A stretch of DNA of 64,000 nucleotides from Skermanella pratensis (GTDB lineage: Bacteria > Pseudomonadota > Alphaproteobacteria > Azospirillales > Azospirillaceae). Where the stretch lies: assembly GCF_008843145.1 (NCBI RefSeq), contig NZ_CP030265.1, positions 1 to 64,000 of the forward strand, in the 5' to 3' direction. Below the pieces are notes generated by a model, which worked only from the letters and a program-made list of their open reading frames with translations, did not search any database and was not told where the DNA came from. Made by a program: the position numbers and the translations under genes. Positions 2,779 to 45,288 of this stretch are shown here, piece after piece (the stretch's first letter is position 1; each line of letters begins with the position of its first letter).

Positions 2779-3949
2779 AGGCCCGATAGCCTTGCGCGAT
2801 GCGCCCGCCCCCAGGCTGGCGGTCACCCGCCTGACCTTGACGCAGTTCCGCTGCTATGACGGCGCGCGGCTGAACGCCGACGCGCGCCCCGTCGTGCTGA
2901 CGGGGCCGAACGGCGCCGGCAAGACCAACCTGCTTGAAGCCGTCAGCTTCCTGTCGCCGGGCCGCGGCCTGCGCCGCGCCCGCTTGGCCGACGTGGAGCG
3001 GATCGGGGCCCCGGAGGGCAGCGGCTGGGCGGTCGCGGCCCGGGTCGAGACGCCGTTCGGCCCGGTCGATATCGGCACCGGCCGCGACGGCGCCTCCGAC
3101 GGCCAGTCGGAACGCCGCCTCGTCCGGATCGACGGCCATCCCGTGCGGGGCCAGGTGGCCCTGGCCGAGCATGTGGCGCTGACCTGGCTGACGCCCCAGA
3201 TGGACCGCCTGTTCGTGGAAGGGTCGAGCGGCCGGCGCCGCTTCCTGGACCGGCTGGTGTTCGGCTTCGACCCCGCCCATGCCGGGCGGCTCAGCCGCTA
3301 CGAGCACGCGCTGCGCGAACGCGGGCGCCTGCTGCGCGACGGCCGGGGCGACGACGCCTGGCTGTGCGCGCTTGAGGACGAGATGGCGACCTCCGGCGTC
3401 GCGGTCGCCGCCGCCCGGCGCGACATGGTGGCGCGGCTCCAGCAAGCCTGCGAGCAGGCGACCGGCCCGTTCCCGCGGGCCGACATCGCGGTCTCCGGCA
3501 CGGTGGAGGACTGGCTGGCCGACCAGCCGGCCCTGGCGGCCGAGGACGCGCTCCGCCGCCGGCTCTCCGAATCCCGCCGCCACGAAGGCTCCGGGAGCGC
3601 CGGGGAGGGCGGCACCGCGGGTCCCCACCGAAGCGACCTCGCGGTCCGCCACCGCGGCAAGGACATGCCGGCCGAGTTCTGCTCGACCGGCGAGCAGAAG
3701 GCGCTGCTGATCGCCATCGTCCTGGCCAACGCCCGGCTGATGGCGGCGGAGCGCGGCCAGCCGCCCCTGATGCTGCTGGACGAGGTGGCGGCCCACCTGG
3801 ACGCCGACCGGCGGAGCGCCCTGTTCGGCGAGATCCTGGATCTCGGCGCCCAGGCCTGGCTGACCGGCACCGACGCGGGCACCTTCGCCGAGCTGGGCGA
3901 CCGGGCCAGCTTCTTCCGCGTGGAGGACGCCCATGTCCATCCGGTCTGA
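2741..3949 (+). CDS. recF: DNA replication and repair protein RecF
   Basis: RecF is an SMC-like ATPase that helps load RecA at single-strand gaps with RecO and RecR. The ATPase features are Walker A GPNGAGKTN, the ABC signature STGEQK and Walker B LMLLDEV followed by AHLD. The conserved domain begins at V-T-R-L-T-L-T-Q-F-R-C-Y (from about 2821). The frame is open from a TTG at 2648 that overlaps the dnaN stop, giving 433 residues with a low-complexity, unconserved leader. I prefer ATG 2741 because GGAG sits 5 bp before it; ATGs at 2726, 2756 and 2771 are alternatives. gyrB follows 88 bp later. Confidence 0.93.
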   Translation: MPPVSMPPVSMSSGPIALRDAPAPRLAVTRLTLTQFRCYDGARLNADARPVVLTGPNGAGKTNLLEAVSFLSPGRGLRRARLADVERIGAPEGSGWAVAARVETPFGPVDIGTGRDGASDGQSERRLVRIDGHPVRGQVALAEHVALTWLTPQMDRLFVEGSSGRRRFLDRLVFGFDPAHAGRLSRYEHALRERGRLLRDGRGDDAWLCALEDEMATSGVAVAAARRDMVARLQQACEQATGPFPRADIAVSGTVEDWLADQPALAAEDALRRRLSESRRHEGSGSAGEGGTAGPHRSDLAVRHRGKDMPAEFCSTGEQKALLIAIVLANARLMAAERGQPPLMLLDEVAAHLDADRRSALFGEILDLGAQAWLTGTDAGTFAELGDRASFFRVEDAHVHPV

Positions 3950-3988
3950 CGCTTCGCCCGCCGTCCCGGCCCCCCGATTCTCCGCCGT

Positions 3989-4002
3989 GGGGATTAATCC
4001 CC
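3989..4002. promoter_or_regulatory. Perfect 14-bp palindrome upstream of gyrB
   Basis: ggggattaatcccc is its own reverse complement. It lies 36 bp before the gyrB start, close to a possible -10 (gatagt, about 4024-4029). It could be a protein-binding site at the gyrB promoter or a short hairpin. No regulator can be named. Confidence 0.35.
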
Positions 4003-4028
4003 CGGCATGTACCCCGAAACTCTGATAG

Positions 4029-6524
<2,496 letters not shown>

Positions 6525-35752: not shown

Positions 35753-37849
35753 TTGGCCCCGCCGACATCGTCCCTAGCCGCTCCCGCCGCGGCGGACCCG
35801 GACAGATTCGAGTTCAAGCCCGCCATGAAGCAACGCCTCCAAGTCGTTGTCCTCGCCACGGCCGTCCTGCTCCCGCTCCTGGCGTTTTCCAGCGCCATGG
35901 TCGTGCTGTTCGACCGCCAGCAGAAGGAGACGGTCGAACGCATGCTCAGCCACGCCGCCGCGGCACTCGAGGATGCGCTGGACCGGGAGCTCGTGTCCAA
36001 CATCGTGGGGCTCGAGTCGCTGGCGACCTCCATCCATCTGGACGATAACGACATCGTCAATTTCGCGGCGGTGGCGCGCCGGCTGCTGGAAAGCCGGGGG
36101 AACTGGCTGTCCCTGCGGCTGCTGCGGGCCGGCGACGGAACTCCGCTGCTCACGTTGCCCGCCGGAGGCGGCGGCGTTGACGCGACGACATCGCCGCCGT
36201 CGCCCGAAACGGTTACCGGTGTCGTCTCGGCAAGGCTGCCGGCCGTGAGCGAGGTGCGGCACGACGCCCGCGGCGAACCCTTCGTTTCGATCGTCGTCCC
36301 GGTGCTGCGGAACGGCGCCGCCGTCTATGCCCTGTCGGCCGACTTGCGCAGCCGGGCGCTCAGCGCGGCGCTGGGTGGGCCGAAGATGCCGGCCGACTGG
36401 GTCGGCGCGGCCCTCGACACCGAGCGGGTAATCCTCGCCAGGACCCGCAGGCAGGAGGAGTTCGTCGGGAAGCCGGCTACAGAGTCGCTCCGGCAGCGGA
36501 TCGACCAGGGCGATCAGACCTTCTTCTTCGCCCGCAGCAAGGAGGGCGAGGAGGTCTACAGCGCGTTCGTCACGTCGCCCTCGACCGGCTGGACCGTGGT
36601 GGTGGGGGCGCCCGGCGAAACGGTGGCCGGCCCCGTGCGCCGGTCGCTCATGGCGGTGACCGGCGGCGGCCTCCTCGCGCTGGCCGCCACCGTCGGGCTC
36701 GGCGCGCTGCTGGTCGGCAACGCCAACCGCCGGCATGCCATGGAACGCAGGCTGCTGGCGCTGGAGGGCGAGCGGATGGCCGAACGGCGGCTCGCCGACG
36801 TGGCGGCCAACCTGCCCGGCATGATCTTCCGGCGGGTCCGGGACCCTGACGGCGCGATACGCTATCCTTATCTGAGCGCGGGGCTGAACAGCCTTGCCGG
36901 AGAGGTGCCGGAAGCACCGCCGGGCGCCGACGAGCTGGAGCTGCTGATCCACCCCGAGGACCGCGACGGCTGGCGGGAAGTCTTCCGGCCGGCCGAGGAC
37001 GGCAGCCGGCTGCAAACCCCGGAGACGCCACCCCTCGAAGCCCGGCACCTGGAGGCCAGGATCGGCCCTACCGCCGGACCGGTCCGCTGGGTCCGCATCA
37101 TGGCGCGCCCCGTGCTGACCGGCGAAGACGAAACGGCGTGGGACGGCGTAGCCCTGGACGTGACCGACCTGAAGGAAACCCAGAACCGGCTGGCCACCTC
37201 GCTCGCCGAAAGTCGGGAACTGCTTCAGGAGGTCCATCATAGGGTAAAAAACAACCTCCAGGTGGTCTGGAGCCTGATCCAGCTCGAGGCGATGCAGATC
37301 GAGGATCCGCAGGCCCGCGACCGGATGGAAATCATCGGGCAGCGGATCGGCGTCATGGGCAGGATCCACGAACAGGTCTATGCCTCGAAGGAATTCTCCC
37401 GGATCGACTTCGGACGCCAGCTGCGCGGGCTGTGCGAGGCCCTGGCCCGTACCTTCGGCAACCCTCCCGGGATCAAGCTGGAAGTCTCGGGCGACACCCT
37501 GTCCTGCCACCTCGACACCGCGATCCCTCTGGGCCTGATCGCCAACGAGCTGGTGGCGAATGCCTTCAAGCACGCCTTTCCCGGCGGGAACGGGACGATC
37601 CGGATCGGCCTGCACGCCGAGGGCGGCGGCGCCGTGCTCGAGATTTCGGACGACGGCGTCGGCATGTCCGGCGCGAGTACCGATCGCGGCCTAGGGCTTC
37701 GGCTCATCAAAGGGCTGCTCCGGCAGATCGGGGCGACCATGCGAACCGGGCCCGGCGACGCCGGAACGGCCGGGGCCGCTGATGCGGGTGGCGGAATCGG
37801 GGGAACCCATGTCACAATCTCGATCCCGGGACCCTGGTATGCCCAATGA
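35753..37849 (+). CDS. Membrane sensor kinase, HisKA_2 type
   Basis: A histidine kinase of 698 residues. A first TM (about 31-52) is followed by a periplasmic Cache-like sensor, a second TM (about 300-322, VTGGGLLALAATVGLGALLV), a PAS domain (about 345-470) and a HisKA_2 dimerisation domain. The H-box reads EVHHRVKNNLQVV, with the phosphorylated His near residue 496. The ATPase has NELVANAFKHAF and DDGVGM. This class often works in general-stress or light signalling of alphaproteobacteria. No response regulator adjoins it. The TTG start is weak; ATG 35825 is an alternative. Confidence 0.85.
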   Translation: MAPPTSSLAAPAAADPDRFEFKPAMKQRLQVVVLATAVLLPLLAFSSAMVVLFDRQQKETVERMLSHAAAALEDALDRELVSNIVGLESLATSIHLDDNDIVNFAAVARRLLESRGNWLSLRLLRAGDGTPLLTLPAGGGGVDATTSPPSPETVTGVVSARLPAVSEVRHDARGEPFVSIVVPVLRNGAAVYALSADLRSRALSAALGGPKMPADWVGAALDTERVILARTRRQEEFVGKPATESLRQRIDQGDQTFFFARSKEGEEVYSAFVTSPSTGWTVVVGAPGETVAGPVRRSLMAVTGGGLLALAATVGLGALLVGNANRRHAMERRLLALEGERMAERRLADVAANLPGMIFRRVRDPDGAIRYPYLSAGLNSLAGEVPEAPPGADELELLIHPEDRDGWREVFRPAEDGSRLQTPETPPLEARHLEARIGPTAGPVRWVRIMARPVLTGEDETAWDGVALDVTDLKETQNRLATSLAESRELLQEVHHRVKNNLQVVWSLIQLEAMQIEDPQARDRMEIIGQRIGVMGRIHEQVYASKEFSRIDFGRQLRGLCEALARTFGNPPGIKLEVSGDTLSCHLDTAIPLGLIANELVANAFKHAFPGGNGTIRIGLHAEGGGAVLEISDDGVGMSGASTDRGLGLRLIKGLLRQIGATMRTGPGDAGTAGAADAGGGIGGTHVTISIPGPWYAQ

Positions 37850-40951: not shown

Positions 40952-41335
40952 TCAGTCGCGCCGGATGAAGATCCAGCAGCCGCCGTCCGAGGCGGGCTGG
41001 ATGCGCACCTGAAGCTCCCGCGAGCGGTCGGCGAAATCGCCGATCCAGCCGAACTCCAGGTCGTACTTGCCGACGGCCCTGGCGCGGTCGATCCGGCCGC
41101 GAAACTCCTTGTTGTCCATGCAGGGCGCCATGTCGGTGAAGAACGACCGGCCGAGCGCCGGGCGCCCCCCGTAGCCGGAAAGCCGTGCCTCCGCGGCGCT
41201 GTAGAAGGTCACGTCACCCTTGGCGTCGAGCCGGATCGCCCCGAAAGGCAGCCCATCGACCTCGGACGGCGGCAACCGCTCGATGGTCCCAGCAAGGTCG
41301 GGCATGTCGAAATCGACTTCGGACGAGTCGTTCAT
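40952..41335 (-). CDS. Photoactive yellow protein homologue (PYP-like PAS photosensor)
   Basis: A 127-residue PAS protein that aligns with photoactive yellow protein almost end to end (PYP has 125). VDGLPFGAIRLD, FYSAAE and FFTDMAPCMDNKEF match the PYP core. By alignment, Tyr45, Glu49 and Cys72 correspond to PYP Tyr42, Glu46 and the chromophore-binding Cys69; Ser53 replaces Thr50 and Tyr55 replaces Arg52. The chromophore pocket is thus largely kept and p-coumarate binding is plausible. The ATG overlaps the kinase stop as ATGA, so it is coupled to the kinase. No ammonia-lyase or coumaroyl-CoA ligase gene is in the window. Confidence 0.85.
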   Translation of the reverse strand: MNDSSEVDFDMPDLAGTIERLPPSEVDGLPFGAIRLDAKGDVTFYSAAEARLSGYGGRPALGRSFFTDMAPCMDNKEFRGRIDRARAVGKYDLEFGWIGDFADRSRELQVRIQPASDGGCWIFIRRD

Positions 41336-44300
41336 GGCCTGCTCCGTTGGTGGGCGTCGGGACCCGCGAGATCGGTGAAACAGGCGATGCCCAGGATGTG
41401 GGTCACCAGGGTACCGTCCGACGAGAGGGGAAGCAGCAGCCGTTCGAACAGCAGCGGCGCCGCGTCGGCGAGCGCGTAGCGGGCATATTCGTAGGAGGGC
41501 GACTCCGATTCGATGCAGCGGCGGTACGAGGCGCCGGCGGAGCCCAGTTCTTCGCCGCCGTCGTCGACCAGTTCGCCGACCAGCGGCCGCCCCAGCCTTT
41601 GGGCAAGGGCGTCGCCGATCCGCAGGTAGCGGAACTCCCCGGTACGACCGCTGCCGATCGCTTCGACCAGGAAACTGTTATCGGCCACGGGTCGGTCGTC
41701 GGGCGGGAAAAGATCGGTTCCCGGCAGGCGGCCGCCTGTGATCCGCGCCGTCTTCCAGCGTTCATAGGCATCGCGCAGGCGGGGACTCCTCAACCGGTTG
41801 CGCAGCTTGTCTGCCGCGGACTCGGCCTGAAGCGCCGGTGGAAGGCGGCCCAGCCGTTCCAGGACCGCCTCGGCCAGCTGGGTCTTGCTGAACGGCTTGC
41901 GAAGCAGCCGCTCGCCGTCCGGCACGGTGTCCTGGCGGTCGCCGCTGATGAACAGGACCGGCAGGTTCGGCCGGTCGAGCCGCAGCCGGGTCCCCAGGAC
42001 CGGACCGGAGTCGCCCGGCATCGTGATGTCGGTCACGACGAGGTCCAGCGGGTCCGTGAGATGCGCCAGGGCGATCGCGGTCTCGGCGCTCCGGGCCTCG
42101 ATCACGGCGTAGCCGAGATCGCGCAGCAGGTGTGCGGTCAGCGCCCGGAGGCTGTCGTCGTCGTCCACCAGCAGGATCGTGGCGCCTCCCCCCGGCGAGG
42201 CAGGCCCGGCAGCCGGCAGTTGCTCGTCCTCGCGCGCCGAGATCTGGGCGCGCGGCAGGTGCAGTTCGATCGTGGTCCCGGCCCCGACGGCGCTGAGGAT
42301 CCGCAGCTTGCCGCCGGACTGCGCGGTCAGGGCATGGGCGGAGGCGAGGCCGAGGCCGGTGCCCCTGCCGCGCGGCTTGGTGGTGAAGAAGGGCTCCGAC
42401 GCCCGGGCGACCACTTCCGGCGTCATGCCCACGCCGCTGTCCTTCACGGAAATGAGGATCCCCTCCCGCGACCCTGTGCGCTCGTCGGCGGGAAGGTTGC
42501 GGGCCGATATCTCCAGCTCGCCGCCGTTCGGCATGGCGTCCCGGGCGTTGGCCGCCAGGTTCAGCAGGACCGCGTTCAGGCGCGAGGGGTCGACGATCAC
42601 CGGCCAGAGATCGCCCTGGAGGTCGAAGGCGCAGCGCACCCCGCTGCCCGCGGTGTGGCAGATCATGTCTTCGCTTTCGCGCAGGACCGCGGTCAGGTCG
42701 ACCAGGGCCGGCTGCGTCTCCTCCCGCCGGGCGAAGGCCAGCAGGTGATGGATCAGGCCGGTCGCGCGGACCACCGCCTGCTCCCCCAGGTCGAGGATCC
42801 TGACCTGCTCCGGAAGGTCGATCCGCCGCCTGAGCAGGCTGTAGCTGCTCTGGATGACGGACAGGATGTTGTTGAAGTCGTGCGAGACGCCGCTGACCAG
42901 CTGGCCCAGCGCTTCCAGCTTCTGGGACTGCAGCAGCGCCGCCTGGGTCTCTTCCCTCCGGCGGATCTCCGCCGTGAGTTCTCGGGCGGCGTCGGTCAGC
43001 GCGCGGGTGCGCTCGGCGACGCGCGCCTCCAGGGCCGCGTTGCTGTCGCGCAGGATGGCCTCGGCGGTCTTACGCTCGGTGACGTCCCAGTTGACCCCGA
43101 TGATGCGCTCGGGCCTGCCGGCCGCATTCCGCTGCACGCTGCACCGGATCGACAGCCAGCGGACTTCCTCCCTGTGCCGGAGCGGATCCGGAGGGCGCCG
43201 GACGCGGAAATCCATCTCGAACCCCTGGCCTGTCCGGACGGCCTGGTCTATCCGGTCCATCAGGGTGGCGCGATCCTCGGAGTCGATCAGTGCCCCGAAC
43301 GCATTCAAGCTCGGCGCGGGCGTGGCCGGGTCGAGCCCGAACAGGCGGTACTGGATATCGTTCCACGCCATGCGGGTGTCCGCCACGTCCATCTGCCAGA
43401 TGCCGATCGCGGCGGCGTCGAGCGCGAAGCGCAGGCGTTCCTCGCTCTCCCGCAACGCCGCCTCGACCTGCTTGCGGGCGGTGACGTCGGCGGTGATTCC
43501 GGTCAGGCGGACCTTGCTGCCGTCCAGATCGAAAACGGCCGCCGCGGATTCCTCGAGCCAGGCCACCGCGCCGTCGGGGCGCTGGTAGCGGTAGGAGACG
43601 GTGTAGTTCGGGGAAGCAGGCTCCAGCCGGGTTACGGTGGCGGCGAACTCCACGCGGTCCTCCGCATGGACGGTCGCGAAGAAATTCCGTCCGGTATCCG
43701 CCGTCGCATCCCCCTCCAGGCCGAGGATCGCCGCGCAGCCTTCGCTCCTGCGCACGGCGTCGGTCCCGATGTCCCAATCGAAGGCGAACATGCGTCCGGC
43801 GGCCATCGCGCGGGCCAGCTGTTCCTCGGCGTCGATCAGCTGGCGTTCCAGCAGCTTGTTCGCGGTTATGTCCGTGGTGGTGCCGACGAAGCCGGTGATC
43901 TCTCCCGCATCGTTCCGCTCGACCAGGGCTTCGCCCAGCACCCAGGTGGTTTTGCCCGATGGCGTGCGGAAGCGGTATTCGAAACGGAAGGGCCGGTTAT
44001 CGAGGGCGCTGCGACGCCATTCGGAGAAGACCCGGTCGTAGTCCTCCGGATGGAGGAAGTCGGTCCAGCCGTTGCCGAGCGCCTGCTCCGGCCGGGCGCC
44101 GGCCATTTCGCACCAGCGCTCGTTGACGCCGGTGCAGCGCCCCTCCGGGTCCGTGCGGAAGATCCCGACCGGCGAGCCGAGCTCCAGGATACGGTACTGG
44201 CTTTCGGCCGCGCGCAGCGCCATGGACCTCTCGTCCAATTTCTGGAAGGCCGCGGTGAGGGCCAGGCCGATCTCGTTGGCTTCCCGCCAGCCGGTGCGGA

Positions 44301-45288
44301 TCCGGGGAACGGCTTCGCCGCCCCCCAACGCTCTGCCCGCCAAGGTCAGCCGTTGCGCCGCCCGCGACATTCGGAGGCCCAGGCCGAAGGCCAGGAGCCC
44401 GGACAGGGCGAGCAGGACGCTGCCGAGCAGAACGGAAGACCAGAGTTCGGCCATGACCGCGGCGTCGACGGCTTGGTCGGGCAGGCCGACCGTGGCGACC
44501 CATCCGGTCAGGTCGGACCTGCTGTAGCCCGAGACGAGATCGGCGCCTCCCGGTCCGGCCGCGGTCGTCACGCCCTCGCTTGCGATCCTGCCGGGCGATC
44601 CGGCCCCGCCGGCGCCCTCCCGGTTCGGGCTCTCGCGGGCCGGCACGCGGGTCAGGACGTTGCCTTTGCGGTCGGTGACGGTGGCGGTCAGGCCATCGCC
44701 GATGCGGGCCTGGGTCAGGATTTCCCGGATGCGCTTCAATGGCAGGCTGGCGGTCAGGAAATAGGCGACCTCTCCGGCTCGAAGGACCGGGACGACGATG
44801 CCGATGACCTCGGTCCCCGAGACCGGCCCGATCATCAGGTCGGATACGCGGGGCATCCTGGTTTCGAGAACAGACCGCGCGACATCGTCGTCGAAGAAGG
44901 AAGGCAGCGGCGTGTTCCAGGGAACCCGCGTGTTGAGCCGCTGCTGCTCGGTCCGGTCGGTCAGGAGGATGACGATTCCGTGGCGCTCGGTGATCCGGCT
45001 CGCCTGCTGGTGGAAGGTCGCGAAATCCTCCTGCTGGAGCGACGGCATCAGGGCCAGGGTCTCCAGCATCGCCATCACGCCGCGCATGTCGCGATCAATC
45101 ATGGCAGTGATCGACCGCGATTCCTTGAGCAGATCGCGCTCGATCTGTGACCGCTGGAGGTCGACTTGATGCAGCAGCAGATAGGACGCAAATATCGAAA
45201 CCGGTATGAACAGGCCAAGCGCCAGCAAAACCAGATGACCCCTGGTGGAAATGCCTTGGTTTCTACAGACTAAGCTAATACGAGACAT
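41332..45288 (-). CDS. Large multi-PAS hybrid histidine kinase
   Basis: A membrane hybrid kinase of 1318 residues. Two TM helices (about 20-42 and 278-300) flank a Cache-like sensor region. Three or four PAS/PAC units follow (about 350-720, motif such as FLHPEDYDRVFSEW). The HisKA box GVSHDFNNILSV has the phosphorylated His near 803. The ATPase has NLAANARDAMP and GTGLGLA. A receiver domain with VVTDITMPG has its Asp near 1086. The last about 180 residues look like a PAS_5 domain. The PYP-like gene overlaps its stop codon and is probably a signal input. No separate response regulator is adjacent. Confidence 0.93.
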   Translation of the reverse strand: MSRISLVCRNQGISTRGHLVLLALGLFIPVSIFASYLLLHQVDLQRSQIERDLLKESRSITAMIDRDMRGVMAMLETLALMPSLQQEDFATFHQQASRITERHGIVILLTDRTEQQRLNTRVPWNTPLPSFFDDDVARSVLETRMPRVSDLMIGPVSGTEVIGIVVPVLRAGEVAYFLTASLPLKRIREILTQARIGDGLTATVTDRKGNVLTRVPARESPNREGAGGAGSPGRIASEGVTTAAGPGGADLVSGYSRSDLTGWVATVGLPDQAVDAAVMAELWSSVLLGSVLLALSGLLAFGLGLRMSRAAQRLTLAGRALGGGEAVPRIRTGWREANEIGLALTAAFQKLDERSMALRAAESQYRILELGSPVGIFRTDPEGRCTGVNERWCEMAGARPEQALGNGWTDFLHPEDYDRVFSEWRRSALDNRPFRFEYRFRTPSGKTTWVLGEALVERNDAGEITGFVGTTTDITANKLLERQLIDAEEQLARAMAAGRMFAFDWDIGTDAVRRSEGCAAILGLEGDATADTGRNFFATVHAEDRVEFAATVTRLEPASPNYTVSYRYQRPDGAVAWLEESAAAVFDLDGSKVRLTGITADVTARKQVEAALRESEERLRFALDAAAIGIWQMDVADTRMAWNDIQYRLFGLDPATPAPSLNAFGALIDSEDRATLMDRIDQAVRTGQGFEMDFRVRRPPDPLRHREEVRWLSIRCSVQRNAAGRPERIIGVNWDVTERKTAEAILRDSNAALEARVAERTRALTDAARELTAEIRRREETQAALLQSQKLEALGQLVSGVSHDFNNILSVIQSSYSLLRRRIDLPEQVRILDLGEQAVVRATGLIHHLLAFARREETQPALVDLTAVLRESEDMICHTAGSGVRCAFDLQGDLWPVIVDPSRLNAVLLNLAANARDAMPNGGELEISARNLPADERTGSREGILISVKDSGVGMTPEVVARASEPFFTTKPRGRGTGLGLASAHALTAQSGGKLRILSAVGAGTTIELHLPRAQISAREDEQLPAAGPASPGGGATILLVDDDDSLRALTAHLLRDLGYAVIEARSAETAIALAHLTDPLDLVVTDITMPGDSGPVLGTRLRLDRPNLPVLFISGDRQDTVPDGERLLRKPFSKTQLAEAVLERLGRLPPALQAESAADKLRNRLRSPRLRDAYERWKTARITGGRLPGTDLFPPDDRPVADNSFLVEAIGSGRTGEFRYLRIGDALAQRLGRPLVGELVDDGGEELGSAGASYRRCIESESPSYEYARYALADAAPLLFERLLLPLSSDGTLVTHILGIACFTDLAGPDAHQRSRP

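Follow-up and report, generated by a model that had tools for sequence, protein, structure and literature searches.

The window, as we call the whole stretch of 64,000 nucleotides from Skermanella pratensis analysed here, contains a hybrid histidine kinase gene that runs into the gene for a PYP-like protein of 127 residues, and this pairing is real and conserved in Skermanella. Judged by its sequence, the small protein belongs to a distinct long-branched PYP lineage that is new here and that we found only in Skermanella and in one genome of another genus (G012). The original prediction overlooked what appears to be the conserved partner, the PAS_5-like C-terminal domain of the kinase. The unit shared by both genera would be the PAS_5/PYP pair, which is likewise new here; the rest of the kinase is seen in this position only in Skermanella. 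The features of the locus are as follows.

41332..45288, minus strand: hybrid histidine kinase, 1318 aa (open reading frame, Pfam, motifs, hydrophobic stretches)
44497..45156, minus strand: dCache_1-like sensor region, aa 45-264, 30.9 bits, below the Pfam cut-off of 45 (Pfam)
42718..42909, minus strand: HisKA, aa 794-857, candidate phospho-His 803 (Pfam, motif)
42247..42591, minus strand: HATPase_c, aa 900-1014 (Pfam)
41863..42177, minus strand: receiver domain, aa 1038-1142, candidate phospho-Asp 1087 (Pfam, motif)
41335..41805, minus strand: PAS_5-like C-terminal domain, aa 1162-1318, proposed PYP dock (homology to the G012 PAS_5 protein)
41342..41345, minus strand: GGAG within the kinase gene, candidate ribosome-binding site of the PYP gene (pattern only)
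41332..41335, minus strand: ATGA overlap of the kinase stop TGA and the PYP start ATG (open reading frames, sequence)
40952..41335, minus strand: PYP-lineage single-domain protein, 127 aa (open reading frame, profile and PDB homology)
41201-41203, 41189-41191 and 41120-41122, minus strand: codons of Tyr45, Glu49 and Cys72 in the PYP gene

A search of the PDB with the 127-residue protein returned PYP or Ppr for all of the top 33 sequences, with a best E value of 4e-22. These matches continue to an E value of 1.7e-13, and the 34th sequence, FixL, has an E value of 0.3, in line with the assignment of the small protein to the PYP family in the original prediction. The TIGR02373 photo_yellow profile matches at 93.5 bits (E = 9.5e-27), below its curated cut-off of 143.05; this profile is reported to recover just ~20% of PYP homologues (PMC9664959). 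The protein is homologous to PYP, in preference to other PAS domains, at a level far beyond chance. The alignment also agrees with the predicted placement of Cys72, Tyr45 and Glu49 at the positions of Cys69, Tyr42 and Glu46 of H. halophila PYP, whose numbering is used below. Thus, the protein has the homology, the Cys69 and the Tyr42 and Glu46 by which the PYP family is defined in PMC9664959. The Cys69 equivalent is present in all six members of the lineage, and Tyr42 and Glu46 are both found in the five Skermanella proteins; G012 has Phe42 and Glu46. The Skermanella proteins further share Phe62, Phe63, Ala67 and Pro68. Loss of the cysteine in close relatives that keep the gene pair had been named as a possible refutation, and it was observed in none of the five Skermanella genomes. 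The PYP gene is under purifying selection, with Nei-Gojobori dN/dS values of 0.24-0.42 for ten Skermanella pairs. AlphaFold models of two PYP sequences were too poor to use (mean pLDDT, 57.6) and were set aside.

The order of domains in the kinase is dCache-like region, three PAS domains (PAS_3 by Pfam), HisKA, HATPase_c, receiver and PAS_5-like domain. The dCache-like region has a hydrophobic stretch on either side, at residues 15-42 and 276-308, which is the layout of a membrane sensor. The phospho-His, ATP-binding and receiver phospho-Asp motifs were all found, as expected of the multi-PAS hybrid kinase originally proposed, and the protein has the HisKA, HATPase_c and receiver domains, with phospho-His and phospho-Asp, of a hybrid histidine kinase. 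The last 157 residues (1162-1318) on their own gave no Pfam match, including to PAS_5 (PF07310, gathering score 22), and PF07310 matches two of the six aligned members of the C-terminal domain set (G012 protein included) at E ≤10. We use the label PAS_5-like because the domain is homologous to the PAS_5 protein of G012 (see below). AlphaFold models of two kinase C-terminus sequences had a mean pLDDT of 42.9 and were also discarded as too poor. The kinase of S. aerolata has the same two ends and one PAS_3 stretch less, giving 1190 residues when counted from the first ATG of the frame. A second dCache-like kinase, with a HisKA_2/HWE core, is encoded ~3.1 kb from the pair (35753-37849, plus strand).

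The kinase and PYP open reading frames have four nucleotides in common, which bears out the ATGA overlap described in the original prediction. The GGAG lies 6 nucleotides ahead of the PYP ATG. A promoter scan found none, where 0.5 would be expected by chance. The PYP gene is present in all five Skermanella genomes examined, the other four proteins being 71-91% identical to that of the window. A comparison of gene order in relatives had been suggested as a check; it places the kinase directly ahead of the PYP gene in five out of five genomes, although in G004 the contig stops inside the kinase. The four-nucleotide overlap is found in four of the five, S. aerolata having a gap of 2 nucleotides instead. 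Overlaps of 1-4 nucleotides are common among bacterial genes in general, and the arrangement could serve co-expression only, the PYP acting on another partner and the overlap just fixing the stoichiometry. The absence of the overlap in S. aerolata fits such an explanation. We nevertheless consider it rather improbable, given that the linkage of PAS_5 and PYP is shared by two genera, whereas the rest of the kinase is not.

To place the small protein among its relatives, we surveyed 82 genomes of the Azospirillaceae family at a PYP threshold of E ≤1e-12 and found PYP in 19. A profile built from the five Skermanella proteins and the G012 protein scores these same six members at 203-247 bits, and everything else at ≤96 bits. 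In a tree of 36 sequences the lineage forms one branch (support 98/96), separate from 15 canonical and four clade-C-like PYPs; the group labels are ours and follow the description in PMC9664959. A tree with PAS domains of the kinase as outgroup was marred by long-branch joins, and for this reason we used the tree without an outgroup. We are unsure of the exact position of the lineage, whose branches appear long. Searches with the profile gave nothing above 96 bits in 385 genomes of the class (E limit 1e-18) and nothing above 77 bits in 398 genomes of the phylum (E limit 1e-10) besides the genome of the window; the two sets partly overlap, and as scoring covered just 10-11 first-look candidates in each genome, a member may have been missed. 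A search at the level of the order covered the 82 genomes of the family survey and brought no addition. A scan of genome contigs yielded one locus, that of S. aerolata. All six records from a plasmid search carry either remote PYPs or PAS proteins that resemble PYP.

It might be argued that the protein is an ordinary canonical PYP that has come to lie next to a kinase by chance. The pocket triad is present, PYP-kinase operons have already been published (PMC12826048), and a tree in which the lineage groups with the canonical PYPs cannot be rejected (AU test, p-AU 0.18). However, the score falls below the TIGR02373 cut-off, the lineage has its own branch away from the canonical PYPs, and canonical pocket positions are changed: the lineage has Ser43, Tyr52 (Phe in G012), Met70, Trp94 (His in G012), Gly96 and Asp100 where H. 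halophila PYP has other residues. We regard this explanation as very improbable.

The evidence for a PAS_5 partner comes from G012. Its PYP is the nearest relative outside Skermanella (43% identity, 97.2 bits, E = 3e-27; the next genome scores 78.8 bits, E = 2e-21) and has Phe42 and Trp62 in the pocket. The gene follows a free-standing PAS_5 gene (PF07310, 45.5 bits) at a distance of 6 nucleotides. When the last 157 residues of the kinase were searched against the 82 family genomes, the best match outside Skermanella was this very PAS_5 gene, with an E value of 8e-17; the next non-Skermanella match has an E value of 2.2e-11, and the other matches in G012 are at 3.1e-10 or weaker. G012 contains 12 PAS_5 matches at E ≤0.01 and, by our estimate, ~4000 genes. 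The odds of a random PAS_5 neighbour in this genome are ~0.6%, not counting the requirement that it be the best match. Relatives of three genes that neighbour the window pair are found within ~8 kb in G012: RlmD (55% identity, E = 5e-139), a thioesterase (43%, E = 2e-33) and a small protein (83% over 70 residues, E = 9e-40). The presence of these three relatives suggests that the two loci stem from one ancestral region, in which the rest of the kinase was either gained in Skermanella or lost in G012. The PAS_5/PYP linkage is known from these two genera. We also considered other PAS_5 matches of the family as PYP neighbours. Six neighbourhoods were read (L083, L084, L086 and L087 in genus g11, L085 in g5 and L088 in g12) and none contained a PYP gene, in agreement with the surveyed PYP positions.

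The genome of the window contains a second PYP, a domain at the C-terminus of a PAS/HisKA/HATPase_c kinase (G000:C1:1112929-1116125, minus strand, the region including a ligase gene; the locus also corresponds to L004 18921-19901 together with L005 1-2225, minus strand). In the alignment this domain has the triad as well as Asn43, Arg52 and Phe96. According to our gene calls, the gene for a 425-residue AMP-binding protein lies 8 nucleotides upstream of the fusion (G000:C1:1114851-1116125). The protein is 46% identical (E = 4.5e-108) to the product of the AMP-binding gene adjoining an annotated pyp gene in Caballeronia, and we infer the substrate of this PYP-type ligase from gene association. 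In G001, a match to the ligase at C1:1152320-1153570 has one TGA inside. We scored up to the 21 best first-look candidates per genome (21 of 26 in G012). At E ≤1e-25, the ligase was found in 17 of the 19 genomes that have a PYP and in none of the remaining 63. The 14 other single-domain PYPs found in the family, 12 of which fall among the canonical PYPs of the tree and two of which were not placed in it, all have the ligase within 0.9 kb; by coordinates, this is true of none of the six genes of the window lineage.

The two PYP genomes in which we found no ligase of this type are G012 and G006. The PYP domain of G006 is identical to PDB entry 1MZU over 115 residues and therefore belongs to Ppr, the R. 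centenum protein known as a photoreceptor (PMC12826048, Table 1). As no ligase of this type was found in the genome encoding Ppr either, its lack is no proof of a missing chromophore. In G012, whose sole PYP is of the window lineage, the search gave no match to the ligase and none to an aromatic lyase (lyase threshold E ≤1e-40; 11 of 11 candidates scored).

The genome of the window contains a single aromatic lyase, which scores 667 bits as a HutH equivalog (cut-off 539), and we found no TAL-type lyase in it. At the columns where the lyases beside PYP genes in S. aerolata and Indioceanicola have His-Leu, which we take to be TAL-like, the HutH-type lyase has Ser-His. We considered HutH as a source of p-coumarate and rejected it for its histidine-lyase-like motif, despite the fact that the genome gave no match to urocanase. 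Of the enzymes that the original prediction proposed to search for, a PYP-type ligase is thus present and a TAL-type lyase was not found. Loading of the window PYP with p-coumarate, which could come from the soil, is plausible in Skermanella. The HutH-type lyase gene at L004:5500-7041 (minus strand) is followed by an acyl-CoA ligase gene at 3799-5085 (minus strand), and G001 and G002 both have the lyase at 94% conservation. In Indioceanicola profundi (L042:3534-8691, minus strand), genes for a canonical PYP, a ligase, a TAL-like lyase, a clade-C-like PYP and a GGDEF protein follow in this order, the last four overlapping by one nucleotide per junction in our gene calls. S. aerolata has a row of genes (L048:7297-11908, minus strand) for the end of a kinase-fused PYP, a canonical PYP, a 236-residue protein with an MCP signalling domain, a ligase and a TAL-like lyase, possibly a phototaxis operon.

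Our favoured, though tentative, reading of the pair, to which we give somewhat less than an even chance, is a split sensor: a protein of the PYP lineage would be made together with a membrane hybrid kinase, dock on its PAS_5-like C-terminus and provide a light-driven input by means of p-coumarate. We infer docking, chromophore, action of light and direction of output; homology, conservation of the residues and of the pair, and, in two genera, the linkage of PAS_5 to PYP were computed. The docked PYP would act as an input apart from the dCache-like and PAS domains of the kinase. In Skermanella, Cys72 would probably carry p-coumarate, loaded by the ligase from the second-PYP locus. Light would alter the contact between PYP and PAS_5 and, through it, the activity of the kinase or of the receiver. 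Met100 has been proposed to catalyse reisomerisation (PMC9664959), and if the protein loads, its changed pocket would predict slow recovery. Given the co-translation, the conserved pair and the kept pocket, the PYP is most likely a separable input subunit that would dock on the PAS_5-like domain. Counting against a split sensor, the ligase is explained by the second PYP. We found no TAL-type lyase in the host, and G012, in which neither ligase nor aromatic lyase was found, has Phe42 and Trp62. Positions 43, 52, 70, 94, 96 and 100 also differ in the alignment from those of H. halophila PYP. Further points against are that the linkage to PAS_5 comes from two genera and that the kinase domain of the window itself did not match PAS_5.

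The strongest alternative is a protein that has retained the PYP fold but given up p-coumarate: a PAS_5 partner that senses otherwise through the cysteine (thiol or redox state, or another ligand), or a structural adaptor of the kinase. We consider this a substantial possibility, if still an improbable one. The lineage is separate and long-branched with support of 98/96, its pocket loop 96-103 is rebuilt, with Gly96, Asp97, Phe98, Asp100 and Arg103 invariant in six out of six members, ligase and lyase were not found in G012, and the ligase is nearby in 0 of 6 members, whereas all 14 other single-domain PYPs found in the family have it close by. Neofunctionalised PYPs have also been proposed (PMC9664959). 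On the other hand, the equivalents of Tyr42, Glu46, Ala67, Pro68 and Cys69 are invariant in the five Skermanella proteins, where a protein without a chromophore should have drifted, and R. centenum, in which no ligase of this type was found either, has a known photoreceptor in Ppr. In a bolder reading, to which we give clearly less than an even chance, this Azospirillaceae lineage would have become a dedicated partner of a PAS_5 domain, forming a light-gated (in G012 perhaps chromophore-free) PAS/PAS heterodimer that became linked to a hybrid kinase in Skermanella.

The relay of the PYP signal is described as an important gap, and 83% of PYP homologues that contain Cys69 are single-domain proteins (PMC12826048). 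The pair offers a named candidate contact, the 157-residue PAS_5-like domain, which is separable from the kinase, and in G012 both the PAS_5 domain and PYP occur as proteins of their own. Comparison with the ligase-linked, kinase-fused PYP of the same cell would help to tell light sensing apart from reuse of the PYP fold for another purpose. If the reading as a PAS_5 partner is true, the pair would offer a defined, separable system for studying how a free PYP relays its signal.

The original prediction took the coupling to a kinase to be non-standard. This does not hold: PMC12826048 tabulates pyp operons with HisKA in eight and HATPase_c in nine cases upstream of pyp, and lists C-terminal kinase-PYP fusions, one of which is also found in the genome of the window. 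Clade A PYPs are often beside signalling proteins, including histidine kinases, and the legend to Fig. 4B provides for overlapping genes (PMC9664959). The main texts of PMC12826048 and PMC9664959 contain no mention of Skermanella, and their supplementary tables may list the pair. The pair is also not reported in the accessible text of the literature on Skermanella and PYP (including PMC2993699), on PAS_5 and PYP, and on PYP-histidine kinase operons in Azospirillum.

The window PYP resembles the clade A PYPs of the H. halophila type in homology, length, the Tyr42/Glu46/Cys69 triad and the APC motif, but differs from them in its own lineage, in Tyr52, Met70, Trp94, Gly96 and Asp100, in the lack of an adjoining ligase and in its PAS_5-type partner. 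Like the operons in Table 2 of PMC12826048, the window has a histidine kinase gene upstream of pyp; here, however, it is a hybrid kinase with a PAS_5-like C-terminus, and the PYP is of another lineage. In the kinase-PYP fusions a PYP is also linked behind a kinase, but that of the same genome is fused, combines the triad with canonical Asn43, Arg52 and Phe96 and has its ligase gene 8 nucleotides upstream, whereas the window PYP is a separate protein with no ligase gene adjoining. Ppr of Rhodospirillum centenum, from the same bacterial family (G006), also links PYP to a histidine kinase, but in a single PYP-phytochrome-HisKA protein with PYP at the N-terminus. Finally, the C-terminal domain of the kinase is homologous to a PAS_5 protein (PF07310), but PAS_5 matches in the surveyed genomes mostly sit in open frames of <300 residues, whereas the PAS_5-like domain in the window forms the end of a hybrid kinase.
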